Source: a virus. From it: a stretch of 38,845 bases of DNA. The position numbers and the translations under genes were made by a program. Positions 7,236 through 30,497 of this stretch are shown here, piece after piece. The notes below the pieces were generated by a model. That model was given only the letters and a program-made list of their open reading frames with translations, did not search any database and was not told the DNA's origin. Position 1 is the stretch's first letter. Each line of letters starts with the position of its first letter. The DNA is taken from the IMG/VR virus record IMGVR_UViG_3300047560_001403, positions 1-38,845 of that record; one strand, 5' to 3'.

Positions 7236-7310
7236 GGCAGTGTAGAGCAGTTCGGAGTGCTCGTTGGCCTCATAAGCCAAAGGTCGTTGGTTCAAATCCA
7301 ACCACTGCTA
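7236..7310 (+). tRNA. Initiator-type tRNA-fMet(CAU)
   Basis: Complete 75-base cloverleaf with anticodon loop CTCATAA. Initiator features: D-stem GAGC/GCTC giving the A11-U24 pair, the GTTGG...CTCATAA...AAGGTCG layout typical of bacterial initiators, and a weak G1-U72 first pair with A73. The anticodon stem has GGC/GCC rather than the classic GGG/CCC. CCA is not encoded. Confidence 0.8.
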
Positions 7311-7311
7311 C

Positions 7312-7392
7312 ATCACACACGCTTCAAGGTGGAGCAGCGGACTGTAAATCCGTCGTCGATAGACATGCTTGGTTCGATTCCAAGGTGTGGTA
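7312..7392 (+). tRNA. tRNA-Tyr(GUA)
   Basis: 81 bases with a long variable arm as expected for Tyr. Anticodon loop CTGTAAA, acceptor ATCACAC/GTGTGGT with one U-G pair, T-arm CTTGG-TTCGATT-CCAAG, A73. Two bases after tRNA-fMet. Confidence 0.9.
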
Positions 7393-7393
7393 C

Positions 7394-7467
7394 GCTCCAT
7401 TAGTCCAATTGGTAGAGGCGCATGACTTAGGATCATGATGTTGGGAGTTCAAGTCTCTCATGGAGCA
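7394..7467 (+). tRNA. tRNA with UAG (Leu) anticodon, short variable loop
   Basis: Perfect acceptor GCTCCAT/ATGGAGC, A73, CCA encoded at 7468-7470. Anticodon loop CTTAGGA reads CUA/CUG leucine codons and has G37 as Leu CUN readers do. The variable loop is only five bases, although bacterial tRNA-Leu normally has a long arm. Confidence 0.85.
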
Positions 7468-7471
7468 CCAG

Positions 7472-7544
7472 GCCCCTCTAGCCCAGCGGTAGAGGCGGTG
7501 GACTTAAAATCCATACAGCACTGGTTCGAATCCAGTGAGGGGCA
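7472..7544 (+). tRNA. tRNA with UAA (Leu) anticodon, short variable loop
   Basis: Perfect acceptor GCCCCTC/GAGGGGC, A73, T-arm ACTGG-TTCGAAT-CCAGT. Anticodon loop CTTAAAA reads UUA/UUG. The variable loop is again five bases, so a class I body with a leucine anticodon. CCA is not encoded; the next gene starts at 7546. Confidence 0.85.
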
Positions 7545-7545
7545 C

Positions 7546-7701
7546 ATGGAAGAATATAAGGTAAGAAGAATGCTTGAACTAGCAAACAAATTGCAAAAAT
7601 TTGAAATAGCATTAAGATTGAAATGTGAGATTTGTGGACCAATCTTGCGTGGTGATAATCCTAATAGATATCCAAAATGTAAAAAACATATTGACAAGTA
7701 G
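7546..7701 (+). CDS. 51-residue zinc-binding-like protein inside the tRNA array
   Basis: ATG 7546 starts one base after the mature end of tRNA-Leu(UAA). Helical N-terminus, then CEICGP and later YPKCKKH, giving C-x2-C ... C-x2-H ligands. The frame is open further upstream, but that would run through two tRNA genes. Its end overlaps the -35 box of the next promoter. Translation from a tRNA-processed transcript without a visible ribosome site is unusual. Function unknown. Confidence 0.5.
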   Translation: MEEYKVRRMLELANKLQKFEIALRLKCEICGPILRGDNPNRYPKCKKHIDK

Positions 7702-7719
7702 GTTCGCACCTGCTATAAT
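7691..7719 (+). promoter_or_regulatory. Consensus promoter for tRNA-Gly and following tRNAs
   Basis: TTGACA (7691-7696), exactly 17 bp, TATAAT (7714-7719): a perfect match to the bacterial housekeeping consensus. tRNA-Gly starts at 7730. Confidence 0.85.
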
Positions 7720-7729
7720 TAAATATATT

Positions 7730-7800
7730 GCGGATGTTGCATATTGGTAGTGCCTCTGCCTTCCAAGCAGAAGGGGTGAGTTCGATTCTCATCATCCGCT
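7730..7800 (+). tRNA. tRNA-Gly(UCC)
   Basis: 71 bases, acceptor GCGGATG/CATCCGC, anticodon loop CTTCCAA, T-arm TGAG-TTCGATT-CTCA, discriminator T, CCA encoded at 7801-7803. Confidence 0.9.
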
Positions 7801-7804
7801 CCAG

Positions 7805-7876
7805 GCCTCCATCGTCTATCGGTTAGGACTTCAGATTTTCAATCTGGCAAGACGGGTTCGACTCCCGTTGGAGGTA
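7805..7876 (+). tRNA. tRNA-Glu(UUC)
   Basis: 72 bases. Acceptor GCCTCCA/TGGAGGT with a first G-U pair, anticodon loop TTTTCAA, T-arm ACGGG-TTCGACT-CCCGT, A73. Confidence 0.9.
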
Positions 7877-7877
7877 C

Positions 7878-7960
7878 GGAAATATGGCAGAGTGGTCGAA
7901 TGCAACGGTTTGCTAAATCGTAGATCGAAAGATCCATAGGTTCGAATCCTATTATTTCCG
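7878..7960 (+). tRNA. tRNA-Ser(GCU)
   Basis: 83 bases with a long variable arm as expected for Ser. Acceptor GGAAATA/TATTTCC, anticodon loop TTGCTAA, T-arm ATAGG-TTCGAAT-CCTAT, G73. Confidence 0.9.
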
Positions 7961-7964
7961 CTGA

Positions 7965-8035
7965 TTCTCCTTCGTCCAACGGTAGGACTCCAGTTTTTGG
8001 CACTGGCAATCTTGGTTCGAATCCAGGGGGAGAAG
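7965..8035 (+). tRNA. tRNA-Gln(UUG)
   Basis: 71 bases. Acceptor TTCTCCT/GGGAGAA, anticodon loop TTTTGGC, T-arm CTTGG-TTCGAAT-CCAGG, G73 as usual for Gln. Confidence 0.9.
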
Positions 8036-8040
8036 CAAAG

Positions 8041-8069
8041 TTGACACAACGAGTGATTAGGAGTAGAAT
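8041..8069 (+). promoter_or_regulatory. Leaderless promoter for the gene at 8076
   Basis: TTGACA (8041-8046), 17-bp spacer, TAGAAT (8064-8069), six bases, ATG at 8076. Drives the operon 8076-9123. Confidence 0.75.
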
Positions 8070-8075
8070 AGAACT

Positions 8076-8153
8076 ATGCATCCTTTATTTGGTTTAGTAT
8101 TTTTCTTTGCTGGTTGGTTTGTTTGTTATGTACAAATGAAAGATTATAAATGA
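8076..8153 (+). CDS. 25-residue membrane peptide
   Basis: Almost the whole peptide is one hydrophobic helix (LFGLVFFFAGWFVCYV) with a charged KDYK end. Start fixed by the leaderless promoter; stop in an ATGA overlap with the phosphatase gene. Very short, but promoter and coupling support it. Function unknown. Confidence 0.55.
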   Translation: MHPLFGLVFFFAGWFVCYVQMKDYK

Positions 8154-8617
8154 AACCTACTGCAATTATTTTTGATGTTGACGGAACACTAGCCAACATT
8201 GAGCCATATCTTCACCATATCAGAAATCTTGATAATGTGGATAACTTTAAAAAAGATTTTGATAAGTTTCATGAAGAGTCTGTTAATGCTAGACCTAACA
8301 TGGAAGTTGTTCAAATGGTAAATCATGCTGTTGCTGATGGTCACGCCATTCTTGTTGTAACATCTAGAAAAGAAATGTGGAGACCACATACTTCTATGTG
8401 GCTTGCAGTAAACGATATACGATCACATGCATTATTCATGCGTAGTAATAATGATGATAGAAAAGATTATGATGTAAAGCGTGACATATTAAAAAAGATT
8501 AATTCAATGTGGATAGTTGTCCACGCAGTTGATGATAATCCAGCAGTCATTAGACTGTGGGAAGAAAATAATATTCCAACTACAAAAATTGGGAATTGGG
8601 ACGGAGATACGAATTGA
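8150..8617 (+). CDS. HAD-family polynucleotide 3'-phosphatase-like protein
   Basis: 155 residues, the size of the phosphatase domain of T4 polynucleotide kinase without the kinase part. HAD motif I FDVDGTLA (nucleophile and acid/base Asp) near residue 8; motif II VVTSRKE near 71; an ALFMRSNNDDRKDYDVKRDIL stretch (motif III lysine) near 94-114, typical of the PNKP C-terminal domain; motif IV VDDNPAVIRLW near 128. Such enzymes remove 3'-phosphate or 2',3'-cyclic phosphate from nucleic acid ends. It would prepare RNA or DNA ends for another ligase, so it acts on the same ends as RtcB. ATGA overlap upstream; TTGA overlap with the next gene. Another HAD phosphatase specificity is possible. Confidence 0.8.
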   Translation: MKPTAIIFDVDGTLANIEPYLHHIRNLDNVDNFKKDFDKFHEESVNARPNMEVVQMVNHAVADGHAILVVTSRKEMWRPHTSMWLAVNDIRSHALFMRSNNDDRKDYDVKRDILKKINSMWIVVHAVDDNPAVIRLWEENNIPTTKIGNWDGDTN

Positions 8618-8697
8618 TTATACTATTAACAATATCTGCTTTTATTGGTGGGTATATTACATGTTATTTTGTTATGACAAGTGGAGTTGAACAATAA
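8614..8697 (+). CDS. 27-residue membrane peptide
   Basis: TTG start in a TTGA overlap with the phosphatase stop. One hydrophobic helix (IILLTISAFIGGYITCYFVM) and a short polar tail. Its TAA overlaps the next ATG by one base. Start codon and shortness make it uncertain. Confidence 0.4.
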   Translation: MIILLTISAFIGGYITCYFVMTSGVEQ

Positions 8698-8861
8698 TGA
8701 GAAAGTATACTGTTGATCTTGGTGACGATGAGTTTATTACAATCCCAGAAAATATACGATACCAGATTGTTCAGGACCATCTAACTAAGTCGTACCACTG
8801 GGTGATTGGCTTTGGAATGCTCATTATAGGCTTTCTGTTGGGGGTTATAGCCTGTGGCTGA
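8697..8861 (+). CDS. C-terminally anchored membrane protein (54 aa)
   Basis: Acidic soluble N-terminal part (DLGDDEFITIPENIRYQ) and one membrane span at about residues 34-53 (WVIGFGMLIIGFLLGVIACG). Part of the 8076-9123 operon, with one-base overlap upstream and an eight-base overlap with the next GTG. Unknown function. Confidence 0.55.
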   Translation: MRKYTVDLGDDEFITIPENIRYQIVQDHLTKSYHWVIGFGMLIIGFLLGVIACG

Positions 8862-9123
8862 TCCAAACCAGACACCTGCTAGGGGAGACTGGGCATGCCC
8901 CTGTAGTGGCTGCCAGAAGGCTGTAGCGTGGGAGAGAAAACAATTAATTCAGGCCTTAGTTGACTATGATATCTGGTACTTAAAATATCGTGGTTCATCA
9001 TTTGACTCTATTACTGGAGAATTGCTATGGGCTAAAGATGATGCTGAAGCATTCCACGAAGGTATCCAGTATGCAATTAAACTAATTGAAGATAGAGCGC
9101 CAAAACCTAAAGCAAGAAAGTAA
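8854..9123 (+). CDS. Zinc-cluster protein (89 aa)
   Basis: GTG start overlapping the previous stop. N-terminal ACPCSGCQKA gives three cysteines in six residues; the remaining part is helical (KQLIQALVDYDIWYLKYRG, later AEAFHEGIQYAIKLIED) with a basic C-terminus (KPKARK). A small DNA/RNA-binding or adaptor protein is possible, but I do not recognise the family. Followed directly by two tRNA genes on the same strand. Confidence 0.6.
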   Translation: MADPNQTPARGDWACPCSGCQKAVAWERKQLIQALVDYDIWYLKYRGSSFDSITGELLWAKDDAEAFHEGIQYAIKLIEDRAPKPKARK

Positions 9124-9129
9124 AGACTA

Positions 9130-9203
9130 GCACCAGTAGCCAAGTTGGTCAAGGCCCCGAACTCATAATTCGGTTATCGTAGGTTCAAGTCCTACCTGGT
9201 GTA
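9130..9203 (+). tRNA. tRNA(CAU), elongator Met or Ile2
   Basis: 74-base cloverleaf with acceptor GCACCAG/CTGGTGT, anticodon loop CTCATAA, T-arm GTAGG-TTCAAGT-CCTAC, A73. The D-stem lacks the initiator A11-U24 pair. From sequence I cannot tell elongator Met from the AUA-reading tRNA-Ile2, which needs lysidine at C34. Confidence 0.85.
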
Positions 9204-9207
9204 CTAT

Positions 9208-9279
9208 ACCTCCGTAACTCAGCGGAAGAGTGACTGCCTTCTAAGCAGTAAGTCGTTGGTTCGAATCCAATCGGGGGTG
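9208..9279 (+). tRNA. tRNA-Arg(UCU)
   Basis: 72 bases. Acceptor ACCTCCG/CGGGGGT, anticodon loop CTTCTAA, T-arm GTTGG-TTCGAAT-CCAAT, G73. The minus-strand gene cluster begins (converging) at 9284. Confidence 0.9.
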
Positions 9280-9283
9280 CAAA

Positions 9284-9904: not shown

Positions 9905-10033
9905 TTACTTCTTTGGATGTTTTACTTCATACGGAGCAATCTTTGCTTTGATTGTCCCGTCTTTCCGCATTTTTACAATCCAACCATCTTTGATTTGTAT
10001 TGGATTAAATGATCCACGCTTCTTCTTAGGCAT
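9905..10033 (-). CDS. 42-residue basic protein
   Basis: Strongly basic (MPKKKRGSFNPIQIKDGWIV, ending VKHPKK). Its ATG overlaps the stop of the upstream gene (ATGCCTAA) and AGGGGAG for the next gene follows its stop. Looks like a small beta-strand protein with a WIVKMRKDGTIKAKI hairpin. Unknown function. Confidence 0.6.
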   Translation of the reverse strand: MPKKKRGSFNPIQIKDGWIVKMRKDGTIKAKIAPYEVKHPKK

Positions 10034-14920: not shown

Positions 14921-15701
14921 TTATCCTCCTTATAAAGTTTCTAACTTCATCCTCATAACCATAGTCGACCTTGTGTACAAAAAATATATTTTCTATTGGC
15001 TGGTCATCTGTAAAGAATGAAGAAATCTGGCTTTGCTTTTTATTAATAATCTCATCTACTAAGTATAAAGGAATATTTCCATATCCAATAATACCAGGAT
15101 AATCTTTTATATTATTAGAAAAGTGTTTTGCTATTGTAGGGAATATAAACTCCTCATAGCAGTGCCCTTCCCTATCATACAATGCTGTACTAGATATCAT
15201 GCGGTAAAGTTTATCAGCAATATCACTCTTAAGCACCATACCCTCAACCAAACACTTCTCTATGCCACGAACAAAAATACCTTTTTCATATTCTGTAAAA
15301 ACATCCATCTTTGTATTAAGCGCATATTCCATCTGATCACGTTTTTCTTGTGTAGGCATTGGCATACATACATCTACTCCATCTATGTATTCCTCTAATC
15401 CATTTTTAATAAAAAGCATTTTTGGATAAAAAATAACTTCGTAGTCAAAGCAGTATTGATTTGCATAATTGTGATTTGAGGTTAGCGCTTTTGTTTTTGT
15501 ATCATATTGCTTGTGGTTAAATCTATCACTGTTTATAATAACATTATTCATAGATGATATCCTATTAAAATTGAAGTCTTCAAACTCTTTATTAACATGA
15601 ATAACAATCAATGGGTCTTTAATAAACTTATTTATATTATTGATCATATCTTCTACAACATCTATATCTTTATAGACAAGGCAATTAAACATAATCTTCA
15701 T
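14913..15701 (-). CDS. Possible glycosyltransferase-like protein (262 aa)
   Basis: N-terminus MKIMFNCLVYKDIDVVEDMI resembles the start of core-2/I-branching (GT14-like) transferases: a short strand, then residues linked to a helix, followed by PLIVIHVNKEFEDF. DYEVIFYPKMLFIKNGLEEY and a C-terminal basic helix follow. No clear DxD motif is visible, so this is a tentative call. It overlaps the HAD-nucleotidyltransferase gene by four bases, and sits between it and the GDPD-like gene, which supports a sugar-related role. Confidence 0.4.
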   Translation of the reverse strand: MKIMFNCLVYKDIDVVEDMINNINKFIKDPLIVIHVNKEFEDFNFNRISSMNNVIINSDRFNHKQYDTKTKALTSNHNYANQYCFDYEVIFYPKMLFIKNGLEEYIDGVDVCMPMPTQEKRDQMEYALNTKMDVFTEYEKGIFVRGIEKCLVEGMVLKSDIADKLYRMISSTALYDREGHCYEEFIFPTIAKHFSNNIKDYPGIIGYGNIPLYLVDEIINKKQSQISSFFTDDQPIENIFFVHKVDYGYEDEVRNFIRRIND

Positions 15702-17056
15702 CTAAAAGACCTCAAGTAACTATCTAAATCTTCTGGCGTTCCTATGCCCCACATTTTTGTTGCCTCTGATGTATAAATTCGTTTGCCATCCTGAATTGCC
15801 TCATTAAAGACAGGGCAGGTATAGAATTCTCCGTTGACCCTTATGTCTTTTTTAATCATTTGCTCTGCATATTTTACAAAATCAGATCCACGCTTCCAGT
15901 AGTAGATTCCAACTGTCGCATTATCGCTAATTGGTTTCTTCTCAGCAACCTCAGTAACCAGTCCGAACTCATCTACCTTTGCATATGACCACTTTGGGTG
16001 GGTAGACTTAAATGTAACAATGCCACCATCTGCATTCTTACTATTCATATCATAGATAAACTCTCTGCTATCCCAATCAACAATCTGGTCTGAGTTTGCC
16101 ATAACTAGTGGATCTTCGCTATTGATAAATTCCTTTGCCATCAAACATGTGACTGCTGCACCCTCAGTTAGTCCATCCACCTGAACAATATTACAGTCTG
16201 GCGTTATGGCATTAAGCAAATATCCAAGGTTATACTTCTCATAGTGTTCCCTCTGAACTATGTAGGTATATGTTGCTGAGATAGCCAAGTTATCGACTAC
16301 CGCCTGAATCATTGGCTTGTTATTTACATCTATAAGTGGCTTTGGAAATACATACCCTGCCTCTGCAAACCTGCTTCCTGCACCTGCCATTGGAATTAAT
16401 ACATTTATATTAGAACCTTTCCAAGACCCCTTTTTATTTAACAATAGACCAACTGCCTTATCAATTTTATCTTCTGTAAGATCTTGCCTATCTTTTACTG
16501 GAATCAGTGTTGCCCCACTATCCATTGCAGATATTCTTCCTACAATACTATCTTCAAATATAACCACATCATCTGGGATATATCCAAAATGAGACATGGC
16601 TTTCCAATAAATTTCTGGATGAGGCTTTGGAAACGATACATCTTCATTACTAACAATAAAATCAATTAGTTCTGATATTCCAAGTTTGGCCAAGCAAATA
16701 TCAATTGTGGATCTAATACTGTTACTTGCTACTGCAACATTTATTCCTGCCGATTTAATCTTTGAAATAAAACTAATTAATTGCTTATCCTGTTGAAGAT
16801 CAGAAAATCTCTCAGTGGTGAAGGTCTGCTTAAGACTTGAGATCTCTGAGTAAAACTCTTGTGGGAGACCAGTTCTTTTTGTTAGAATAGCCAACTTGTT
16901 TTTTGTTGGCAACCCCTCGTATATATTTTTTTGATCATGCTCAGATATAACATACCTGTCTGATATTGTTGCTAAAGCAAGATTTAGTGATTCATAGTGT
17001 ATCTGTTTGCTATCAACCAGCACACCATCTAAATCAAAAATCACTAACCTATTCAT
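15698..17056 (-). CDS. Fusion of HAD phosphatase and sugar nucleotidyltransferase
   Basis: 452 residues in two domains. Residues 1-215: beta-phosphoglucomutase-type HAD, with FDLDGVLVDSKQIH (motif I), VAVASNSIRS (II), FPKPHPEIYWKA (III) and VVIFEDSIVGRISAMDSGA (IV). Residues 225-452: nucleotidyltransferase fold, with VLIPMAGAGSRFAEAGY and FPKPLIDVNNKPMI (NTP binding, as in GlmU/RmlA/ManC types) and VMANSDQIVDWD (metal-binding Asp). It could dephosphorylate or isomerise a sugar phosphate and link it to a nucleotide. The linker has a few basic residues. Stop overlaps the next gene by four bases. The exact sugar cannot be named. Confidence 0.85.
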   Translation of the reverse strand: MNRLVIFDLDGVLVDSKQIHYESLNLALATISDRYVISEHDQKNIYEGLPTKNKLAILTKRTGLPQEFYSEISSLKQTFTTERFSDLQQDKQLISFISKIKSAGINVAVASNSIRSTIDICLAKLGISELIDFIVSNEDVSFPKPHPEIYWKAMSHFGYIPDDVVIFEDSIVGRISAMDSGATLIPVKDRQDLTEDKIDKAVGLLLNKKGSWKGSNINVLIPMAGAGSRFAEAGYVFPKPLIDVNNKPMIQAVVDNLAISATYTYIVQREHYEKYNLGYLLNAITPDCNIVQVDGLTEGAAVTCLMAKEFINSEDPLVMANSDQIVDWDSREFIYDMNSKNADGGIVTFKSTHPKWSYAKVDEFGLVTEVAEKKPISDNATVGIYYWKRGSDFVKYAEQMIKKDIRVNGEFYTCPVFNEAIQDGKRIYTSEATKMWGIGTPEDLDSYLRSFR

Positions 17057-20394: not shown

Positions 20395-20801
20395 TACTTA
20401 CCGCTCTTTTTCCTTGCTGCTGCTAGTGCTTCAAAGTCTTTGATCTTTGTTTCTCCAAGGTATCCCCAAGCATAACCATCATTGATCATCTTGTTATTAA
20501 CAGACTCAGACTCTCCATTGATATATACCCAGCCCAAAATGCGACCATACTTTTCAGATGAGTCCATCTTTTCAGTGCGAATAACTACAGACTTAGCATC
20601 CTTGAGTTGCTTCTTAAGGTATTCCTTTGCTTCAAGCCCAAGAACCTTTTCAGCCTTATCAGATGTGCGAGATTCAGGGGTATCAATACCAGCCAATCTT
20701 ACACGAGATGCAAATAGGATATCAAATCCTAAATCAATAAGAACATCAATGGTATCTCCGTCAACAACATTTTCTACTTTTCTTACATAGTATTCATACA
20801 T
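20394..20801 (-). CDS. Staphylococcal-nuclease-like (thermonuclease) protein
   Basis: 135 residues, one SNase domain. VVDGDTIDVLIDLGFD (Asp ligand), VRLAGIDTPESR (Arg and Asp/Glu of the active site) and EKYGRILGWVYI (second active Arg) are all present; the C-terminal helix is basic. Ca2+-dependent cleavage of DNA and RNA is known for the family. There is no signal peptide, so it is intracellular: host DNA degradation or nucleotide recycling is plausible. Overlaps the endolysin stop by one base. Confidence 0.9.
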   Translation of the reverse strand: MYEYYVRKVENVVDGDTIDVLIDLGFDILFASRVRLAGIDTPESRTSDKAEKVLGLEAKEYLKKQLKDAKSVVIRTEKMDSSEKYGRILGWVYINGESESVNNKMINDGYAWGYLGETKIKDFEALAAARKKSGK

Positions 20802-21586
20802 TATTTGACACCCTTAATTTGACGATATGTTTCTTCATCAACTACACCAGTTGGCTTTAGGTTATTTTTTGTTTGGAAATTCTTTACAGCCTTTGCTGTT
20901 CCGTCTCCAAATTGTCCATCAGCAGTGATCTTTAATGCTGCCTGTACTTCCTTAACCTTTGCGCCCTTAGAACCCTTCTTTAAAGGCTTCCAGACTTGTA
21001 CTGGTGGAACATCTACACCCTGAGACTTAACGACTTCTGCAAGAGCAGCCTTCTTTTCTTCTAGGGTTTTTGTTGTTGCTGTTGCTGCATCTGGATAGTC
21101 CACCTGTCCATACCCTGCAATAAATACTGGTAGTCCCTTTTTGTTTGGACCATATGCACGAAGTTTAAAGCATGCTTCGCCACCATTTGACTGGCTACCC
21201 TTTTTACCATCAGGGGATGTATTTCCTTCTCCACATAGAGCAGTTCCATCTCCATTATCCTTTACAATCCAACCAACATGGTCAATGTCACGACCACCTG
21301 GGAAATTAAAGTAGACAACCCATCCTGGCTGTGGTCTATTGCCCTTTACTGGAACCCACTTGCCCATCTTCTTAAACGCTGCTACACCTGCTGGTGTATA
21401 AACAGTATTTGGAATCTTGATTCCAGCGGTATGGGCAGTCCAGTTAACAAAGGATCCACACCATGGCAAGAAGTTTGCCTTAGTGAATGCCCCATACTTT
21501 GTTTCATTATCCTTTGGACCTTCTACGGTCCCAATTTCTTTTCCAATTGTTTCTAGCAATAATGCTAGAGTACCTTTTGTTGCCAT
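20801..21586 (-). CDS. Endolysin: CHAP amidase/peptidase with peptidoglycan-binding domain
   Basis: 261 residues. Residues 1-155: CHAP domain, with the catalytic Cys in FLPWCGSFVNWTAHTAGI (about 43) and the His in GGRDIDHVGWIV (about 103). A linker with KKAALAEVVKSQGVDVPP follows. Residues 195-261: PG_binding_1 repeat (LKKGSKGAKVKEVQAAL...ADGQFGDGTAKAVKNFQ). Cleaves cell-wall peptide or amide bonds at lysis; no signal peptide, so release needs a holin. AGGAA precedes the ATG. TTGACA-N18-TATAAT lies upstream, overlapping the HNH gene's end. Confidence 0.9.
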   Translation of the reverse strand: MATKGTLALLLETIGKEIGTVEGPKDNETKYGAFTKANFLPWCGSFVNWTAHTAGIKIPNTVYTPAGVAAFKKMGKWVPVKGNRPQPGWVVYFNFPGGRDIDHVGWIVKDNGDGTALCGEGNTSPDGKKGSQSNGGEACFKLRAYGPNKKGLPVFIAGYGQVDYPDAATATTKTLEEKKAALAEVVKSQGVDVPPVQVWKPLKKGSKGAKVKEVQAALKITADGQFGDGTAKAVKNFQTKNNLKPTGVVDEETYRQIKGVK

Positions 21587-22201: not shown

Positions 22202-23014
22202 TTAGTTAGAGAGAACCTGAACCACCTTTGCAGATGGATCAATACTATTCTTATTTGATGCAATTGCAACTGTTGCAGCAGATGTTGTGAATTCTACTGA
22301 GCCAAACCAAGGAGCAACTGTTTTCATATTAGAAGTCTTACTTGTGTTTACTAGTATACCAGAAACATCAGCAAGTGCGCTATGATATTTTGCTCCAGAT
22401 AAAGACCCTACAGAGATTACATCTGGAACACATGCTGGATACTGCAGAGCCTTTGTGCTATCATTTCCTGCTGCTGCATATACTGGAACATTTGAAGACT
22501 TTAGCGTTGAAACCAAAGACCTAATTGATGAGTCCATTACTGCAACTGATCCACCTTGTGATGAGATCTTGCATTCTCCTGGCTTTGCATTTGAGTTTGT
22601 AAGGTTATATGAAAATGATACAGCGCTTACATTAGACTTATTTGCATTTGTCCATGTCAATGCTTTGATAAAATCAGAACCATCCAGTGTTGAGACTGAT
22701 GTTGCACCTGTTCTCTTGTTAATTGTAACTTCCTCTGTTTGAACTAAAACAAGTGTTGCTGTTGGGTTTTGTTCACGAGCAATTGAAGCCATGATTGTTC
22801 CGTGATTTGACGGATCTGTTCCAAGTCCTGGCTTTAGAATAGCCTTGTTCACACACTTGTCTGATGCCAAACAAACAAATTCAACGCTTCCAGAAATCTT
22901 TGACGCATCAAAGTAACTATCTACGATTACAATTCTTTCACCAACTGCTGCCTGTGATTGAACTGGTACTACAACTGAAAACAATACTGCTACTAGTGCT
23001 ACGATTTTCTTCAT
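22202..23014 (-). CDS. Secreted subtilisin-like serine protease
   Basis: 270 residues from ATG 23014. Signal peptide at residues 1-24 (MKKIVALVAVLFSVVVPVQS, cleavage near QAA). S8 fold: IVIVDSYFDASKI (catalytic Asp), NHGTIMASIARE (His), VPVYAAAGNDSTK (oxyanion Asn) and FTTSAATVAIAS, where the catalytic Ser stands in TSAA instead of the usual GTSMA. The domain is small for a subtilase (about 245 residues), lacking a propeptide. An exported phage protease could act on surface proteins during exit or against competing phages; unknown. Overlaps the small gene upstream by one base. Confidence 0.85.
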   Translation of the reverse strand: MKKIVALVAVLFSVVVPVQSQAAVGERIVIVDSYFDASKISGSVEFVCLASDKCVNKAILKPGLGTDPSNHGTIMASIAREQNPTATLVLVQTEEVTINKRTGATSVSTLDGSDFIKALTWTNANKSNVSAVSFSYNLTNSNAKPGECKISSQGGSVAVMDSSIRSLVSTLKSSNVPVYAAAGNDSTKALQYPACVPDVISVGSLSGAKYHSALADVSGILVNTSKTSNMKTVAPWFGSVEFTTSAATVAIASNKNSIDPSAKVVQVLSN

Positions 23015-23184
23015 TATTGACCTTCCATTAGTCTGATTACTACACAACATGGGTCGCCACCTTGGTCCCACTCTTCTACTTCTTCTTCACTCATATACTG
23101 GTATCCACCATCATGAGTGTTGCAGTAGGGTTCTGTAACCCATCCCTCTTCAATGCCTAACATTAACCATTCATCGAACTTCAT
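23014..23184 (-). CDS. 56-residue conserved actinophage-type protein
   Basis: MKFDEWLMLGIEEGWVTEPY, then CNTHDGGYQYMSEEEVEEWDQGGDPCCVVIRL. The W-x-x-EP-x-C-x-T-H-D and DPCCVVIRL pattern is familiar from many actinobacteriophage hypotheticals. The three cysteines and the histidine could bind metal. Function unknown. ATG is six bases after a consensus leaderless promoter; stop overlaps the subtilase ATG. Confidence 0.8.
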   Translation of the reverse strand: MKFDEWLMLGIEEGWVTEPYCNTHDGGYQYMSEEEVEEWDQGGDPCCVVIRLMEGQ

Positions 23185-23190
23185 ATTATA

Positions 23191-23219
23191 AGTATACCCT
23201 TTCAGATATTGCTTGTCAA
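23191..23219 (-). promoter_or_regulatory. Leaderless promoter for the gene at 23184
   Basis: On the minus strand TTGACA (23219-23214), 17-bp spacer, TATACT (23196-23191), six bases, ATG 23184. Best example of the shared architecture. It drives the 23184 gene and probably the subtilase. Confidence 0.85.
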
Positions 23220-23221
23220 AT

Positions 23222-24868
23222 CTATTTGCCGTTCCATTTTGCTAATTCATCTTGTAAAAGATCAAGACCCATTGGACCAAGTTTGAGCGCATAGTTATGA
23301 AATTTCTTAAGGTCAAACTTATCACCAAGGCGTTTCTTTGCATCTTCACGAGCATCAAGCCAAACCTTCTCGCCAAGTTTATAAGTAACAGCCTGACCTG
23401 ACCAAGAAATATAACGCTTTACTTCATTAACAGCATAATCATGATTTAGTAATGCAAACTCTTCCATAAACTTGACAGCACTATCAAAGTTCCAAACCTT
23501 ACCCTCGTATGGGTCAGTGTACTCTAGGTGTAGTCCAATGTCTACTACTAGTCTTGCTGCTCTCATTGCTTGGCACATTAAGTACCCCATTTTATATCCA
23601 GGGTCCTCAAAGTATCCAAGTTCATCCATTAGGCGTTCTGAGTATAATGCCCAACCTTCTCCATACCCTGAATTCCATGCATTTTCACGTTGGTAACGAG
23701 TTAGAGTTTCTTTATTTAAAATAGAATAAGCCATCTGCATATGGTGTCCAGGAACTGACTCATGAAACCAAGTAGAATAGTTTTCCCATGTAGTAAATCT
23801 AGTACGCCCTAATACTGGATAAATAGTCTTGCCTGGACGAGTCATATCGTCTGAAGGAGGGGTGTAGTATGGAGACGCATCAATTGTATTTTCATCTAAT
23901 TCTACGCTACACTGTCTCATCGCAACAGGAATTGTAAAAACTGTTCCTGATAAATCTTTTATTGCTTGCTTTGTTACACCCTCAAGAAATGCTTTAAAAT
24001 TATCTTTTCCATCAATATAGTATTTTGGGTTATTGTTTAGATAATCACGTACCTCTACTAAACTATTAAACTCTCCCCATTCTTTTGATAATTGCCACAT
24101 GTCATGATTAATGCGATTAATCTCATCAATACCCCATTGATAAATTCTGAATGGATCAATATCCAAACCAGTATACTCTTTAACATTTTTTAGATATCTA
24201 TCCTTACCAACAGCATAATTATTTTTAGCCATAGGCATATATTTAACTTCTAGCCATGCTGACAACTGTTCGCATGCTGCATCTGCATTTTTTGCTGCTT
24301 TCATAAGGCGTTTATCATTTTTATCTAAACCTTTTGCAAATTCCTGAAATGAACCAGAAGCATAATTATTTAAAACCTCAATCAAAAATTGAACACGAAC
24401 TTTAGCGTTTACAATGTTAAGTCGTGCAACATCATTAAGGGCAGTAGTCCACTCAGTAAATGCTGCAGGAATCTTTTCCATACGCTTGATAATATCAAGA
24501 ATATCTCTGCGAGTTTCTTTTGGCATAACTTCAAAAACTTCAAATATTGATTGTGGTTCTGAGTATATTGAACCAAAATCTGCGTACATATAAAAATCAT
24601 TGGCATCATTGATATATGTTTCAATGTCTCTAAGGATAATCTTTTTAGCCAACTCATCGTGAGAATCTAGACATTTTGCCTCAGAGATCTTTTTATGGTA
24701 TGATTTTGCTATTCTTACAAATGGATCAACTGGATGAAATGAATAATCATTCCAGTGTATGTTTTGATCCGTTTTATTTGCATATGTAGAGGCAATGGCA
24801 TCATAGTCTAGAGTTTTATCAAAATATTCTTGACATAGTTTAAACACTAATGAGCGTGACTTAGCCAT
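23222..24868 (-). CDS. DUF885-family metallopeptidase-like protein
   Basis: 548 residues from ATG 24868, about the full length of bacterial DUF885 proteins without their lipoprotein signal. The diagnostic HESVPGHHMQMAYSI motif (an HExxPGHH variant of a zinc-protease helix) lies near residue 395, then GYGEGWALYSERLMDELG near 430, with the glutamate likely completing the metal site. DUF885 proteins are thought to be peptidases of the gluzincin-like type; substrates are unknown. The N-terminus has no signal peptide. Unusual cargo for a phage. The leader upstream may fold into a hairpin (see separate entry). Other ATGs upstream are not supported. Confidence 0.85.
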   Translation of the reverse strand: MAKSRSLVFKLCQEYFDKTLDYDAIASTYANKTDQNIHWNDYSFHPVDPFVRIAKSYHKKISEAKCLDSHDELAKKIILRDIETYINDANDFYMYADFGSIYSEPQSIFEVFEVMPKETRRDILDIIKRMEKIPAAFTEWTTALNDVARLNIVNAKVRVQFLIEVLNNYASGSFQEFAKGLDKNDKRLMKAAKNADAACEQLSAWLEVKYMPMAKNNYAVGKDRYLKNVKEYTGLDIDPFRIYQWGIDEINRINHDMWQLSKEWGEFNSLVEVRDYLNNNPKYYIDGKDNFKAFLEGVTKQAIKDLSGTVFTIPVAMRQCSVELDENTIDASPYYTPPSDDMTRPGKTIYPVLGRTRFTTWENYSTWFHESVPGHHMQMAYSILNKETLTRYQRENAWNSGYGEGWALYSERLMDELGYFEDPGYKMGYLMCQAMRAARLVVDIGLHLEYTDPYEGKVWNFDSAVKFMEEFALLNHDYAVNEVKRYISWSGQAVTYKLGEKVWLDAREDAKKRLGDKFDLKKFHNYALKLGPMGLDLLQDELAKWNGK

Positions 24869-24914
24869 GTTAATCCCATCTAGTAGTATGCTGAATCCCC
24901 CTCTAAGATGGGGT
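24869..24914 (-). promoter_or_regulatory. Structured 5' leader of the DUF885 gene
   Basis: From the predicted transcription start (about 24914) the leader contains CCCATCT (24912-24906 on the minus strand), complementary to AGATGGG (24881-24875) just before the ATG, and alternatively CCCC/GGGG next to the start. The two pairings exclude each other. Regulation is inferred only. Confidence 0.35.
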
Positions 24915-24920
24915 ATATCT

Positions 24921-24949
24921 AGTATACCAGCACTTAAAGGGGGAGTCAA
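24921..24949 (-). promoter_or_regulatory. Promoter of the DUF885 gene
   Basis: On the minus strand TTGACT (24949-24944), 17-bp spacer, TATACT (24926-24921). Unlike the leaderless sites, here about 46 bases separate the predicted start from ATG 24868. Confidence 0.7.
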
Positions 24950-24969
24950 ATACCCTTAAATATGAGTAA

Positions 24970-25269
24970 TTATGCTATTTTTGATTTTGCTCTGCGTCTT
25001 TCTACTGCTTGGTCTTGTACTGTTACTGCATTTTTGTCTGTTGTAGAAAATGCTGCATTGATCTCATCTCTTGTAAGTTTCCCGTCATCCATAAATGCAC
25101 GAGATAACTTCTCAACTACTACCGCTACTGCACTAAGCCCAGCAACTGTCATAGCCTTTGCTACAGGAACTCCTGCAACTGCTCCTGCTCCAATAACTGC
25201 AAGTGCATTTGCTGCAAATGTTGCAACAATACGCATAAGGATGTTCCAAATATTTGTTATGCTATTCAT
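24970..25269 (-). CDS. Small membrane protein with EF-hand-like end (holin candidate)
   Basis: 99 residues. Two hydrophobic helices (about 12-32 and 37-53: IVATFAANALAVIGAGAVAG; AKAMTVAGLSAVAVVVE) and a soluble C-terminal segment with MDDGKLTRDEINAAFS, which resembles a single EF-hand loop (DDGKLTRDE). AGGAGG precedes the ATG. Size, topology and location in the envelope/lysis region suggest a holin, but membrane proteins of this shape have other roles too. Confidence 0.6.
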   Translation of the reverse strand: MNSITNIWNILMRIVATFAANALAVIGAGAVAGVPVAKAMTVAGLSAVAVVVEKLSRAFMDDGKLTRDEINAAFSTTDKNAVTVQDQAVERRRAKSKIA

Positions 25270-25271
25270 AT

Positions 25272-25442
25272 TTAGTCCTCCTCTCTATTTCTAATTGGAT
25301 AACTTAATACCCAAGTTAGACATGTAATAATAATTCCATAACCAACTACGACTTTGGCACTTCCGTCCAAAACTACCCAGGCGATGAACATGCCCAGAAG
25401 GGTCCACTGTTGATCAAGAATATCTTTTAATAGTTTTACCAT
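25272..25442 (-). CDS. Small two-span membrane protein (holin candidate)
   Basis: 56 residues. Two spans at about 13-27 and 31-46 (LLGMFIAWVVLDGSA; VVVGYGIIITCLTWVLS) and charged ends. A GGAGGA site stands seven bases before ATG 25442, which overlaps the stop of the PA14 gene. Two bases separate its stop from the next gene's leader. Together the two genes might form a holin/antiholin-like pair; inference only. Confidence 0.6.
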   Translation of the reverse strand: MVKLLKDILDQQWTLLGMFIAWVVLDGSAKVVVGYGIIITCLTWVLSYPIRNREED

Positions 25443-27601
25443 CTTTCATTCCTCCTTGAACCGCCTGAATTTGTTCCACCACTTGGTCCAGATGAACCAC
25501 CACCTGTAGGTGCTGATCCACCAGTTGCAGCCCCAACAGCATTTAATGCTGCACCTGCTGCCACTACTGTTGCTACAACCATTTCGGTTGCTTCTTTTCT
25601 TTCTTCTGGAGACATATCTGCTCCAATACTTCCAAGGGCTGCAAGAGCAGCACCTGGGTCTGTAAATAATTCTTCAACTAGTGCTCCAGGATCTGATATT
25701 AGTTCAACCTGTGCAGCAACTTCTGCTGTAATAATAACAGCATTTCCATTTTCATCTGTTCTGACATCTACTGGTGTTGCAGGTGGAAGATCAGCATAGG
25801 ATATTCCAGATGCTTTTACTTCTGCTGCAGATAAAGATTCACCTGGTTGTAAGTTTGCTACTAAATTTTCTACTACTACTTCTTTTTGTGCTTCAGTTAA
25901 CTTACCTTCTTCAGCAGCCTTCTTCAAGGCTTCTTCTTCTGCCTTGGCCTTTGCTGCTTCTTCTGCTTTCTTTGCTTCTAATGCTTTTGCTTCCTCTTCC
26001 GCTTTTGCTTTGGCTTCCGCATCAGCCTTAGCCTTAGCCTCTTCCTCTGCTAATCTTTCTGCTTCAGCCTTTGCTTCTGCTTCTGCTTTGGCTTTAGCCT
26101 CTGCCTCTGCTGCTAAACGATCTGCCTCTGCTTTTGCTTCAGCATCTGCTTTAGCCTGTGCTTCTTCTGCTGCTTTCTTTGCAGCCTCTTCAGCAGCAAT
26201 ACGATCTGCCTCTGCTTTCTTTGCTGCTTCTTCTGCTGCTATTCTGTCAGCCTCAGCCTTTGCTGCAGCCTCTGCTGCTGCTTTGGCTTCTGCTTCTGCT
26301 TTAATTCTTGCTTGCTCTGCTGCATATGCTTCTGCTGCAGCAACTCTTGCAGCCTCTGCTGCTATTGCTGCTTGTCTAGCAATCTCTGCTTGTCTTGCTT
26401 CTTCAGCAATTCTTGCTCTCTCTGCTTCTTCTGCAGCAAGTGTTGAAACAACCAATGTCTGTGCTGCTGTGACATTATTATTCATATTAGTAACTGCAAC
26501 ATCAACTGCTATAAGGGCAGATACTAGATTATTTTCTGCAGTTGTTAGATTAGTTTGTGCCTCTGTTAAATCTTCCTGCGCTACTTCAAGATCTGTTTCT
26601 AATACATCAAGGGTTGCCTGAGCAACTTGAAGATCTGTTTGTGCTGTTTGCAATGCCGCAATCTGTTCTGGTGTTGCAGATGTAGTAGAAAATTCAGATG
26701 CAGGAATTACTGACCATGAGCCATCTCCATTGTATCTCATTAATGCAACTGATGCTCCACCACCATTTTCATAAAACCAAAATTCAAAATCCTTACCAAC
26801 TCCTGCTGTTGTTTGAACTGCAGCAGTTGATCCTCCACCACCCTTGTCATACCAATCATTAATAACTAGTTGTCCATCTAAATATAATCTTGTTCCATCA
26901 TCTGCTGGTGCATAAATCCATTGTGTCCCAGTGTATTGTGGAGTCCAAATACCTTCCCACTTAACTTGGAAATCTTCAGGGTATGTGTTAGCAGGGCCTC
27001 CACCACCATACTGTTCATTAATTCCATTTGTGTCAGTAGTTACAGATACAACTGTTCCAGCACCTTGTGGAGGAGCATTATTATATCCACGATCCTGATA
27101 AACAGTCATAGTCAGACCAGGACTTGTATTTTCATTAACTACTGCTGTTGCTGAGTCTACAATATCTAATTTAATTTCAACTGTGGCTGTTTGTGAATCT
27201 ACTGCTATTTGAGAAATTTGTACATTTTCTTGAGCATCTTCTACTGCTACCGTTGCAGAATCAACCTGAGCCACAGCCACAGTAGCACTATCTACTACTG
27301 CTTGAGCCTGTATGATAGAGTCCTGAGCCTGTGTGATAGTGGCTGTAATGGTCTCTGTAGGGCTTGTAATGGCTTCTGCTTGGGTTTCTACCTGTGCCGT
27401 GGTTGTTTCAGCCTGAGTTATAGCAGTCTGCGCTGACTCAATAATGGCTGTAGGCGTTAAACTTGTCGCTGTAGATGTGTCTGATGGGGGTGTTTGGACC
27501 GTGACTGTTTCATCAGCATGCGCCTTTTGCTGTGGAGAAAGTAAAACCCACAGTGCTAGTAATAATGCTATAAGTGCTGATCGTTGAAGTAATCTTTTTA
27601 T
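25436..27601 (-). CDS. Secreted PA14-domain protein with long alanine-rich coiled coil
   Basis: 721 residues if translation starts at ATA 27601. Reading back from the GTG at 27280, the frame stays open another 321 bases and reveals a signal peptide: KRLLQRSALIALLLALWVLL, then SPQQKAHA before DE. No ATG, GTG or TTG lies in front of that signal sequence, while GGGGGAG stands five bases before ATA. Then: Thr/Ala/Gln repeats (30-160), a PA14 domain (about 160-305, with WEGIWTPQYTG, ADDGTRLYLDGQLVINDW), a TolA-like Ala/Glu/Lys coiled coil (about 395-570), a globular part, and a Gly/Ser-rich tail. PA14 domains bind carbohydrates. Secreted adhesin-like; function in the phage unknown. Confidence 0.8.
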   Translation of the reverse strand: MKRLLQRSALIALLLALWVLLSPQQKAHADETVTVQTPPSDTSTATSLTPTAIIESAQTAITQAETTTAQVETQAEAITSPTETITATITQAQDSIIQAQAVVDSATVAVAQVDSATVAVEDAQENVQISQIAVDSQTATVEIKLDIVDSATAVVNENTSPGLTMTVYQDRGYNNAPPQGAGTVVSVTTDTNGINEQYGGGGPANTYPEDFQVKWEGIWTPQYTGTQWIYAPADDGTRLYLDGQLVINDWYDKGGGGSTAAVQTTAGVGKDFEFWFYENGGGASVALMRYNGDGSWSVIPASEFSTTSATPEQIAALQTAQTDLQVAQATLDVLETDLEVAQEDLTEAQTNLTTAENNLVSALIAVDVAVTNMNNNVTAAQTLVVSTLAAEEAERARIAEEARQAEIARQAAIAAEAARVAAAEAYAAEQARIKAEAEAKAAAEAAAKAEADRIAAEEAAKKAEADRIAAEEAAKKAAEEAQAKADAEAKAEADRLAAEAEAKAKAEAEAKAEAERLAEEEAKAKADAEAKAKAEEEAKALEAKKAEEAAKAKAEEEALKKAAEEGKLTEAQKEVVVENLVANLQPGESLSAAEVKASGISYADLPPATPVDVRTDENGNAVIITAEVAAQVELISDPGALVEELFTDPGAALAALGSIGADMSPEERKEATEMVVATVVAAGAALNAVGAATGGSAPTGGGSSGPSGGTNSGGSRRNERW

Positions 27602-27638
27602 TTCCTCTCCCCCTATTTACACGATGTGTAATAGGCTT

Positions 27639-27647
27639 ATTATAGCA
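27639..27647 (-). promoter_or_regulatory. Extended -10 promoter of the PA14 gene
   Basis: TGCTATAAT on the minus strand, about 40 bases before the proposed ATA start; the -35 region is poor. Lies between a terminator and the gene. Confidence 0.5.
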
Positions 27648-27659
27648 TTTTATTGCAAC

Positions 27660-27687
27660 AAAAAAGGGAGCCTATCTCTAGACTCCC
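27660..27687 (-). terminator. Rho-independent terminator after the Ig-like protein gene
   Basis: On the minus strand GGGAGTCTA-GAGA-TAGGCTCCC (9 bp with one G-U, tetraloop) followed by six T. Placed 16 bases after the stop at 27703. Confidence 0.85.
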
Positions 27688-27702
27688 CTAATTGTTAGAA
27701 GA

Positions 27703-28704
27703 TTACTTCTTAAGTGCAACCTTAGCCTTTGGATTCTTAGCGTTCCACTTCTTAGCAAGAGCGTTGTACTCTGCCTTGTATGCTGCTGCTGCAACATCTG
27801 CTGCTGCCTTAGCAGTTGCAGTTGCTGTATCTGCTGCAGTCTTTGTAGCAGCGTGTGCTACCTTCTCTGCTGCAAGTGCTGCGTTTGCTGTAGCAAGGTC
27901 TGCCTTTGCTGCTGCAAGTTGTGCTTGAAGTGATGCAAGAGCATCCGCTGGATTTGTAACAGAAGCAAACTTTGTAACAGTCTTAACTGCTGGAGCGAAT
28001 CCTGCAACATCTGTTGCTGTGATTGCTACTGAAAGTGCTGCTGTTCCTGCTACTGCAGGTGCTGTAAGATCAAATACGAATGTTCCTGTTGCTGTATCAG
28101 ATACAGAAACTGAACCAAGTGTTGCATTGATTGCAGATACTGTTGGAACAGTTGTTACAACTGGATTTCCAAAGATATCTGTTGTCTTTGCGTAGACCTT
28201 TGAAACTGTTGAGATTGCTGCAGTATCTGCGCCTACAACTGAAAGGTTGTATGCAGGACCTGCTGATCCCTTAACATAGTAAGTTGTTGTGTTTCCACCA
28301 ACTGTTACTACAACTGTTCCTGGATTTACTGACTTTGTAAACACATAGAAGTCAGCAGTTGTGCCTGTTCCTGTGCTAATTGAAAGTGTTGATGTACCTG
28401 CTGATGCAGTTACTGGTGCTGACACTGTTGCAAGTGCTGGCACGATTGATGCGTTTGTCGCAAGTGCTGAGACTACTGTTCCAGTGTCTAGTCCAGTGAT
28501 AGCAATCTTAAGTGCATCTGCAGAGTCAACTGAGTTGTCTGCTGGCACTGGAAGTACTGCTGGATTTGATACAACTGTTCCTGTTGCTACAGATGATCCA
28601 CCTACAGATAATGCTGTAGATGCTGCCTGTGCAGGAAGAATTGCTAGAACTGAGCCAGTCAAGGCTGCAGCGATGACGACGGCGGTTTTCTTAAACGAAT
28701 TCAT
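27703..28704 (-). CDS. Secreted Ig-like / coiled-coil surface protein
   Basis: 333 residues from ATG 28704 (AAGG eight bases upstream). Signal peptide MNSFKKTAVVIAAALTGSVL with cleavage near PAQA-AS. The next about 210 residues are Val/Thr/Ala-rich beta repeats resembling bacterial Ig-like or S-layer-type domains (TVVVTVGGNTTTYYV; VTTVPTVSAINATLGSVSV). Residues about 250-310 form an Ala-rich helical coiled coil (LQAQLAAAKADLATANAALA), and the end is basic (KWNAKNPKAKVALKK). An ORF from 28725 is possible. It follows terminase directly and ends in a strong terminator. Host-like surface protein; role unknown. Confidence 0.75.
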   Translation of the reverse strand: MNSFKKTAVVIAAALTGSVLAILPAQAASTALSVGGSSVATGTVVSNPAVLPVPADNSVDSADALKIAITGLDTGTVVSALATNASIVPALATVSAPVTASAGTSTLSISTGTGTTADFYVFTKSVNPGTVVVTVGGNTTTYYVKGSAGPAYNLSVVGADTAAISTVSKVYAKTTDIFGNPVVTTVPTVSAINATLGSVSVSDTATGTFVFDLTAPAVAGTAALSVAITATDVAGFAPAVKTVTKFASVTNPADALASLQAQLAAAKADLATANAALAAEKVAHAATKTAADTATATAKAAADVAAAAYKAEYNALAKKWNAKNPKAKVALKK

Positions 28705-28721: not shown

Positions 28722-30497
28722 TCATATTAGATTGAATCTATCCAAATAGTCTTTTACCTCTTTTGGCATAGGTTTATATTCTATCACACCTGTTAGAGGG
28801 TTGTCAACTTTAGGTCTATCCCTAAATGTATGAATCTCTACTTCAGCGTTATTATCCTTTGGGGTATGAGAGATAGCCCCAAAGATTGCACCACACACGG
28901 CATCCGCTAAGTCTTTAGAAGATTTTCGTGGGTGGTCAACTTTATTATTTTTCATAATCTTGAGTTCGGTTAACTCCTCAAACAAAAGATCGATTGCTGG
29001 CATTGCAAGTCTTTCCTCATATACTAGCATAGCCATGTCCTCATAGTGCTTTTTAGCAACAGAAACAGTATCAGTTCTCATTCCTACCTGCTTTAACTCA
29101 TTTTGAATATCAAATGATTGCCAGCGGTCAAAGGATACTATTCCAATATTAAAACCAAGCCTTCTCAGGTTTTGGATCCACTGCTTTACTTCAGATAGGT
29201 TGACTGGTCCTTCTACTTTAGGCTCCCAGTATGCAACTGCATCAACAACTACTACTGGGGCAACTTGCTCATAATTATTAATTACCTGAATATTTACCCA
29301 CTTCTCTACATGGGCAATAGCAACAGCACACTTGTCATGCCTTTGGGCAAGGTCAGCATGTACATAATAAACCTTATCTGGATCTGGCTTAAATGATTCA
29401 TCAAATCTTCTAAAGTTATCAAGTGGGTTTCTTAATGTCATGCATGATCTAACCTTATCTACCTGCTTAAAAAATGCATCAGTTGAATATGTTGGTACAC
29501 AAGCAAAGCGTTGCATGGCATCGCCTAGGTCAGTAAAGAATGAAACCTTAAAATCGTCAACTTTTCTTGTTGGATTAACAACCCATGTTGGTCTCTTTAG
29601 TGCAAATACTCCTGGGTACTTATATGAAAGAATTGTATCTTCATCCCAGGAAATTTCAAGAGAATTACCATCTGCATCTTCAGGAAGATCTTCATTCATA
29701 ATAAACTTATGTGTCTTTGTTATTACATCTTTTTCTGCAATTACATCATCATATCTTTGTGAGATAAAGTCTCCAGGATAACGGGGGAATGAGAGTAGTG
29801 CTACCTTGCCAAGATCTGGGAAACGGGAATCTACGGAAGCACGGAAGGCCTTGTAAATATTATCAGCAGTCTTACCTTGGTCATTTCCAGTTCCTACTTC
29901 TTGAGCAAAACCAGAAATTTCGTCAAGCACTGCAAGTAGAAGGTTTAAACCCTCATGTGATTCACGCTCTGAGTGACCAGAGTAAACAGTAATAGCATGA
30001 TCAAACTCAATAGATTCTGCCTTTGGATTAAACTTACCTGCAAACCAAGGTGACTTCTCAATCTTTGTTTTAAAACCTTTAAAGAAAACGTTTTTGGCCT
30101 GCTGAGCGTTAATAGCAACGTTAATAATATCAATTGCATCTCCAGAAGGCTTTCCAAAATATCTAGCAGGATCTTTTAGACATAGAAGTTTGTATACAAT
30201 ATATGCACATGCTACTGTAGATGTAAAGTCTTTTCCAGATCCCTTGCCAAGTTGCAGGATAACTTCATTCTTTGTGTATTTCTTATAATATCTTGTGCCC
30301 TCTTCTGCACCCATTAGATCAATCAAATCTTCTAGTTTGTAGATCTGACTCATAGCCTCAACAATGTCATACTGGATTGGAGACAGTGGTGGTTGATTTA
30401 GATAGTCTTCTCCCTCAACAAATGTCTTTGCATTTACTGGCTTTTCAGCAAAATTATTATCCTTGAGTACTTCTAAGAACTCATCAAACATCAGCAA
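28722..30497 (-). CDS. Terminase large subunit
   Basis: 591 residues. N-terminal ATPase: LQLGKGSGKDFTSTVACAYI (Walker A, about 79-98), LLLAVLDEISG (Walker B and catalytic Glu), then KVALLSFPRYPG (coupling motif). C-terminal RNase H-like nuclease: VYYVHADLAQRHDKCAVAI (first Asp), GFNIGIVSFDRWQS (second Asp), and SSKDLADAVCGAIFGA (third Asp). The motor cuts concatemers and pumps DNA into the capsid. Overlaps the small subunit gene by 14 bases. No capsid or portal gene follows, which is unusual: two secreted proteins come next. Confidence 0.93.
   Translation of the reverse strand: MLMFDEFLEVLKDNNFAEKPVNAKTFVEGEDYLNQPPLSPIQYDIVEAMSQIYKLEDLIDLMGAEEGTRYYKKYTKNEVILQLGKGSGKDFTSTVACAYIVYKLLCLKDPARYFGKPSGDAIDIINVAINAQQAKNVFFKGFKTKIEKSPWFAGKFNPKAESIEFDHAITVYSGHSERESHEGLNLLLAVLDEISGFAQEVGTGNDQGKTADNIYKAFRASVDSRFPDLGKVALLSFPRYPGDFISQRYDDVIAEKDVITKTHKFIMNEDLPEDADGNSLEISWDEDTILSYKYPGVFALKRPTWVVNPTRKVDDFKVSFFTDLGDAMQRFACVPTYSTDAFFKQVDKVRSCMTLRNPLDNFRRFDESFKPDPDKVYYVHADLAQRHDKCAVAIAHVEKWVNIQVINNYEQVAPVVVVDAVAYWEPKVEGPVNLSEVKQWIQNLRRLGFNIGIVSFDRWQSFDIQNELKQVGMRTDTVSVAKKHYEDMAMLVYEERLAMPAIDLLFEELTELKIMKNNKVDHPRKSSKDLADAVCGAIFGAISHTPKDNNAEVEIHTFRDRPKVDNPLTGVIEYKPMPKEVKDYLDRFNLI

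Follow-up and report, generated by a model that had tools for sequence, protein, structure and literature searches.

What are several exported proteins doing directly behind the packaging genes of a phage? The question is raised by the 38,845-base IMG/VR virus record IMGVR_UViG_3300047560_001403 (GC 38.5%), which was analysed as a whole and is termed the window. On its minus strand, the large terminase gene (TerL, 28722–30497) is followed by genes for an Ig-like protein (Ig), a PA14-domain protein (PA14), two small membrane proteins (hol1 and hol2), a DUF885 protein and a subtilase, then by two tRNAs, an HNH protein and a CHAP endolysin. A preliminary description of the sequence had presented the six genes after TerL as a separately regulated module of exported proteins that might decorate the infected cell, mask receptors or act in exit from the cell, and their strand, order and coordinates all proved correct. 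With a probability of about 0.55, we consider that they form two units of exported, envelope-acting proteins beside actinophage lysis genes, one serving Ig-mediated masking and the other being a PA14-headed lysis operon with a LysZ-like mode of action. Elsewhere in the window, a cluster of ten tRNA genes, two of them with a CAT anticodon and of initiator, elongator or Ile2 type, was noted on the plus strand (7236–9280), and positions 15698–17056 encode a HAD-type hydrolase fused to a nucleotidyl transferase domain (452 aa).

When viral contigs were scanned with the Ig protein, relatives were found to be encoded in 374 stretches, and the module is kept across hundreds of IMG/VR stretches. The same neighbours recurred at the 80 loci whose neighbourhoods were inspected. 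Two layouts were seen, namely layout A, with the order TerS-TerL-Ig-PA14-hol1-hol2-(proteases)-endolysin, and layout B, with the order PA14-hol1-hol2-...-subtilase-...-Ig, away from TerL. The position directly downstream of the terminase, which had been taken to characterise the module, therefore holds for the window but not in general, since many relatives carry PA14-hol1-hol2-S8-Ig away from TerL; the adjacency is a feature of one layout and is incidental. Ig was present once in each of 25 records searched (one match being split into two pieces); of the same records, 24 had TerL and 22 had a WhiB-family gene scoring above the cut-off. WhiB marks actinobacteria, which are therefore the most likely hosts. 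A freshwater origin of these hosts is also most likely.

The nearest annotated TerL proteins were those of Streptomyces phages of the Stanwilliamsviridae, such as Kenrey (54% identity). Stanwilliamsviridae genomes are tRNA-rich and about 130 kb long, but unlike in the window, no Ig, PA14 or subtilase gene is annotated downstream of TerL in Kenrey. A tblastn search of INPHARED phages returned no relative of Ig or the subtilase, one relative of hol2 (from a lake metagenome phage), three matches to DUF885 and one weak match of PA14, to a Pelagibacter phage protein. When genome contigs were scanned, using either DUF885 or the Ig alignment, there were pattern matches and no relatives, and the identity of the host and any host origin of the module genes are what we infer. 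A literature search for Nanopelagicales paired with S-layers found nothing. Some long Ig alleles end in an IQKKVKA tail, and a similar tail is presumably present in surface proteins of freshwater acI actinobacteria; this was given no weight. The five module proteins searched with PADLOC had no defence-system match.

Signal peptides and membrane helices were predicted by hydropathy rules. Strict Sec signals were matched by two of the 56 window ORFs, Ig and the subtilase, whereas shuffled N-termini would be expected to give 0.38 matches. The third signal peptide of the preliminary description, that of PA14, was also recovered, given the start codon described below. In two near-complete relatives of about 115 kb, G013 and G014, there were four and five strict matches, of which three and four, respectively, fell inside the module. 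The signal-bearing proteins of these two genomes were Ig, PA14 (G014), hol2, the subtilase, a nuclease-like protein and a small ORF. Over many relatives, the Sec signal peptides and their AxA sites are conserved. In G013 (116 kb), the portal, maturation protease, tape measure, minor tail and tail fibre genes form a separate cluster elsewhere in the genome, of which neither Ig nor PA14 is a member. The signal peptides within the module, together with structural genes located elsewhere in G013, thus mark an exported set distinct from the virion set. To this extent the earlier interpretation stands: the separate structural cluster and the conserved transcription units point to exported, non-virion, envelope-acting proteins that are regulated apart from packaging. 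Near the lysis region of G013, an exported protein with a GmrSD_C domain, a possible secreted nuclease, was also observed (47182–47862; L086:7182–7862).

The first unit is a single gene on the minus strand (27703–28704) encoding the 333 aa Ig protein, with a Sec signal peptide, two Ig-like domains, a coiled coil and a basic KWNAKNPKAKVALKK tail. A promoter-like TTGACA-N18-TAGAAT site, an 11/12 sigma70 match, lies ahead of it inside the 3' end of TerL (28778–28807, minus strand), and relatives have TTGACA..TGTGATACAAT. The gene is followed by an intrinsic terminator with an 11-pair stem and a T run (27664–27689, minus strand), which is kept in layout A and takes another form in layout B. Ig is thus monocistronic, and the separate promoter and strong terminator that had been claimed are both real features of the sequence that recur in relatives. 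In layout B, a recurrent hairpin-like repeat (CTGTGCTC..GAGGCAG) was also seen in the Ig 5' leader, for example in L043 upstream of Ig at 9995.

In the AlphaFold model of Ig (pLDDT 78.5), two Ig-like sandwiches are followed by a long helix at the C-terminus. Its structural neighbours were FdeC (Z 11.2), intimin (Z 10.4) and the S-layer protein SbsC (Z 9.9), and the best neighbours also included invasin and the Ig domains of GH2 beta-galactosidase; the fold is common and says little of function. In the model, the exported protein shares the tandem Ig-like sandwiches of bacterial surface proteins of the invasin, intimin and S-layer kind. At sequence level, the window protein had no Pfam match and no meaningful relative in the PDB, while the long Ig allele gave a weak match to Big_1. 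Conservation is among the highest in the tail YNALAKKWNAKNPKAKVALKK and, within the short alleles, in the first Ig domain. In other phages, the same slot encodes a protein of 530–577 aa whose signal peptide is similar and whose tail is usually the same, but whose middle has no detectable similarity. The exchange can be seen by comparing L007 with L126, where the DNA on both sides of it is about 83–84% identical. The Ig genes of these two loci (L007:791–1780 and L126:2174–3898) have non-homologous middles, and two kinds of tail, KWN..P and IQKKVKA, were observed. A tail common to Ig and the subtilase was considered and was not supported by a motif scan.

The constant signal and anchor-like tail, the exchangeable display domains and the production apart from the lysis operon are best accounted for if Ig is displayed on the surface of the infected cell, where it might for instance mask receptors. 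Among the roles first proposed, surface decoration, masking or exclusion is hence favoured for Ig, on account of its swappable domains. The protein would stay on the surface or wall of the infected cell by means of its basic coiled-coil tail and would mask receptors or debris, which would save progeny from being lost to the dying cell or its remains. Exported phage proteins that alter the surface of the infected cell are known from T5 (Llp) and lambda (Lom and Bor), and Llp masks the receptor during lytic growth. Ig resembles these in being a phage-encoded protein that its conserved signal peptide predicts to be exported from the infected cell, as superinfection exclusion or receptor masking would require. 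It differs in that the known examples are lipoproteins or outer-membrane proteins of phages with Gram-negative hosts, whereas tandem Ig-like domains and a coiled-coil tail are found here in an actinophage.

The second unit begins with PA14. In all 17 layout-A intergenic regions inspected, the same order was found: a terminator hairpin, a T run, TGNTATAAT, a dyad, a purine-rich site and a non-canonical start codon. The TGNTATAAT element corresponds in the window to an extended -10 promoter, TGCTATAAT (27639–27647, minus strand), so that the separate promoters claimed for the module extend to PA14. Between the promoter end and the ribosome-binding site lies a 5' leader hairpin (27611–27636, minus strand) with compensatory changes in relatives. 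In an alignment of 12 sequences on which the fold itself was defined, 79% of the cells were paired and covariation was 0.328, against 0.142 in shuffles, with one of 500 shuffles as high and far lower values in slid controls. A fixed-sequence operator in the leader was not favoured, since the letters of the dyad vary while the pairing is kept. In layout B, where the promoter is of the same type and the start is TTG, an inverted repeat particular to that layout lies between the two.

PA14 (25436–27601, minus strand) is followed by hol1, a 56 aa membrane protein (25272–25442, minus strand) that fell below the cut-off of the ORF list. The hol1 ATG overlaps the PA14 stop (ATGGTAA), hol1 has an AGGAGG of its own, and no family match was found for it. 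The 99 aa product of hol2 (24970–25269, minus strand) is a holin-like membrane protein matching phrog_443 (holin, 6e-7) and also phrog_26427 (1.6e-23), which is labelled 'nuclease'. Across relatives, PA14 and hol1 stay together and are followed by hol2 or by a lipoprotein and a two-TM holin-like protein, often then by the endolysin. In L016 (3106–3724), for example, hol2 is replaced by a small lipoprotein (RYPCQDPxNWE) and a two-TM holin-like protein; the lipoprotein of the hol2 slot gave a weak match to 'Rz-like spanin' (0.0017). In the window, the endolysin, with CHAP and peptidoglycan-binding domains, lies at the end of the lysis region (20801–21586, minus strand). The succession of hol1, then hol2 or the lipoprotein and two-TM protein, and often the endolysin points to a conserved lysis operon with PA14 at its head and, by its gene content, probably accessory proteases between hol2 and the endolysin. 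The option of a role in exit from the cell therefore gained ground for PA14 and the small membrane proteins, which share an operon with holins and the endolysin. Two-holin lysis cassettes (LysF1a/LysF1b) have been described for mycobacteriophages and Gordonia phages (PMC13056207; PMC9671378). These are likewise actinophage cassettes in which an endolysin is accompanied by small holin-like membrane proteins; here, however, an exported PA14 protein comes first in the operon and exported proteases come after the holins. A search of the literature on PA14 proteins with holins found nothing relevant.

The start of PA14 required separate attention. Its open frame extends to 27616 and holds a signal peptide, IKRLLQRSALIALLLALWVLLSPQQKAHA, ahead of which there is no in-frame ATG, GTG or TTG. 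The likely start is the ATA at 27599–27601 (minus strand), with its first base at 27601, behind a GGGGGAGAGG site, and solely with this start is the signal peptide visible. Relatives have ATA, ATT or ATC at this position, mostly followed by a Lys codon and sometimes directly preceded by an in-frame stop (L025, L054, L132 and L135), and in alignments this codon falls on the ATG of L059 and L066 and on the layout-B TTG. Automatic assignment over 50 distinct contexts, which come from related sequences and hence are not independent events, gave ATA 11, ATT 11, ATC 1, TTG 22, ATG 4 and unassigned 1; the assignments for L109 and for L096 and L107 (which may begin at a later codon) are doubtful and leave the result unaffected. 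The window and its clade use ATA, ATT or ATC, and the sister layout (B) uses TTG. Further ATT and ATC starts, and no ATG, were found in the phages with the long Ig allele.

For comparison, starts placed by homology were ATG in 141 of 145 contexts (~97%) for Ig, S8, TerS, the endolysin and a thermonuclease (tnuc), a count that omits two lysins without a placeable start. Those of hol1 and hol2 were ATG in nearly all cases inspected. An apparent excess of ATT and ATA at hol2 was an alignment artefact, the checked genes nearly all having ATG, often further upstream. In a scan of the conserved families of the window, G013 and G014 for canonical starts, PA14 was the only sense-strand family clearly lacking one; one hol1 frame that was flagged proved to be an artefact of an upstream shadow frame. 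Upstream short ORFs or a frameshift were also considered as the source of the PA14 N-terminus and were set aside, as no consistent upstream ATG frame was present. A single transition would turn ATA into ATG, yet ATG is almost absent at the PA14 start.

An AUU start codon is found in infC-type genes. PA14 is similar in having a conserved AUU, AUA or AUC start after a Shine-Dalgarno-like site, and differs in belonging to a phage lysis operon and in leaving the third base free with G nearly excluded. The literature on AUU and AUA starts in phages yielded nothing relevant. The AUA, AUU or AUC (or UUG) start probably holds PA14 translation low relative to the holins, and such a weak start could lower PA14 alone or, if translation is coupled, both. 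We put forward only tentatively that the lineage-wide AUA/AUU/AUC start, with AUG nearly excluded, and the structured leader together are a deliberate translational brake, which would set how much is made of a lysis factor that is membrane-anchored and binds glycans and possibly, via the state of the host's initiation factors, when lysis occurs.

Translated from this start, PA14 has 721 aa and comprises a signal peptide, a PA14 domain, a long coiled coil, a C-terminal hydrophobic helix and a basic tail. The PA14 domain was matched by Pfam PF07691 (8.4e-10, 39.1 bits, above the gathering cut-off of 24), and PHROG also gave a weak tail-fibre match (1.7e-4). PA14 domains often bind glycans. A very long stretch free of Gly and Pro would span 20–45 nm if it formed one helix. 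Of 19 homologues, 18 have the hydrophobic helix MVVATVVAAGAALNAVG with a basic tail behind it, and by this measure L073 alone does not. A single-sequence fold was poor (pLDDT 51) and was left out of the fold search. From the signal peptide and the C-terminal helix, PA14 is predicted to be an exported, C-terminally anchored fibre that carries its PA14 domain on the coiled coil. In function, the closest analogue described so far is LysZ from the Corynebacterium phages CL31 and Cog, a lysis protein of 177 aa with one TMD in N-in/C-out orientation that is proposed to act on lipid-anchored envelope glycans (PMC13056207). PA14 is likewise predicted to be membrane-anchored and is encoded in an actinophage lysis operon; it differs in its length, signal peptide, PA14 domain, long coiled coil, C-terminal helix and non-AUG start. 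The likeness is one of working, as far as LysZ has been described, and membership of the same family is not claimed. On this analogy, PA14 would most likely be a membrane-anchored, glycan-binding lysis aid that helps to open or detach the envelope, as proposed for LysZ.

The genes after hol2 encode hydrolases. The subtilase-like S8 protease (22202–23014, minus strand) has a signal peptide and an intact active site, with D33, H72, N185 and S246 (the Asp/His/Ser triad and the oxyanion Asn) invariant in 18 relatives including the window. The window protein had no Pfam match and was identified by PHROG as 'protease' (5e-9); its relatives in L005, L054 and L078 exceeded the PF00082 cut-off, with values down to 3.6e-20. 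The DUF885 protein (23222–24868, minus strand; PF05960, 3.6e-117) has an HESVPGHH motif, matches PDB 3iuk and lacks a signal peptide; few relatives carry it. In the corresponding slot of G013 (41905–42429; L086:1905–2429), a proteasome/HslV-like protein (PF00227-like) was observed. The proteases look like accessories.

Three other explanations were weighed. If Ig, PA14 and the subtilase all serve lysis and release, loosening a proteinaceous or glycan coat of the host with Ig as a wall-binding helper, it would be natural for exported proteins to lie beside holins and the endolysin in the layouts seen, for an exported protease with an intact active site to occur in both layouts, and for the Ig fold to resemble S-layer and wall-associated domains. 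We regard this as a serious but distinctly less probable alternative, since Ig has its own promoter and terminator and is thus regulated apart from the lysis operon, and since the swapping of its domain with the flanks kept fits a partner-specific role better than general clearance.

It is unlikely that Ig and PA14 are instead virion fibres or decorations with signal-like N-termini. The weak tail-fibre and Pelagibacter phage similarities of PA14 lean that way, and fibres often have coiled coils and swappable domains, but the clear and widely kept Sec signals with AxA sites, the C-terminal membrane helix of PA14, the separate structural cluster with fibres of its own and a non-canonical start suited to a low-level protein argue against it. 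A set for nutrient acquisition or host takeover, in which the subtilase, DUF885 and the proteasome-like or nuclease gene digest proteins and nucleic acids while Ig and PA14 keep them near the cell, would account for the varied hydrolases after hol2 (DUF885 in the window, the PF00227-like and exported GmrSD_C-like proteins in G013). It too is improbable, because the hydrolases vary, DUF885 being limited to a few relatives, whereas Ig and PA14 are constant, so that the core role would not be hydrolysis.

Standard gene callers would truncate PA14 and hide its signal peptide across many genomes, and the rarity of a conserved AUA/AUU/AUC start makes PA14 a test case for viral regulation through the start codon. 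Among annotated phage records, Ig is without a match and PA14 has one weak match, while an exported Ig surface protein is encoded in every genome examined of this widespread actinophage family. Lysis by phages of Gram-positive bacteria is usually told as the work of a holin and an endolysin, to which this family adds a predicted exported PA14 fibre heading the operon. Should Ig be a receptor mask, receptor type ought to be reflected in its swappable domains, which would help to link these uncultured phages to their hosts.
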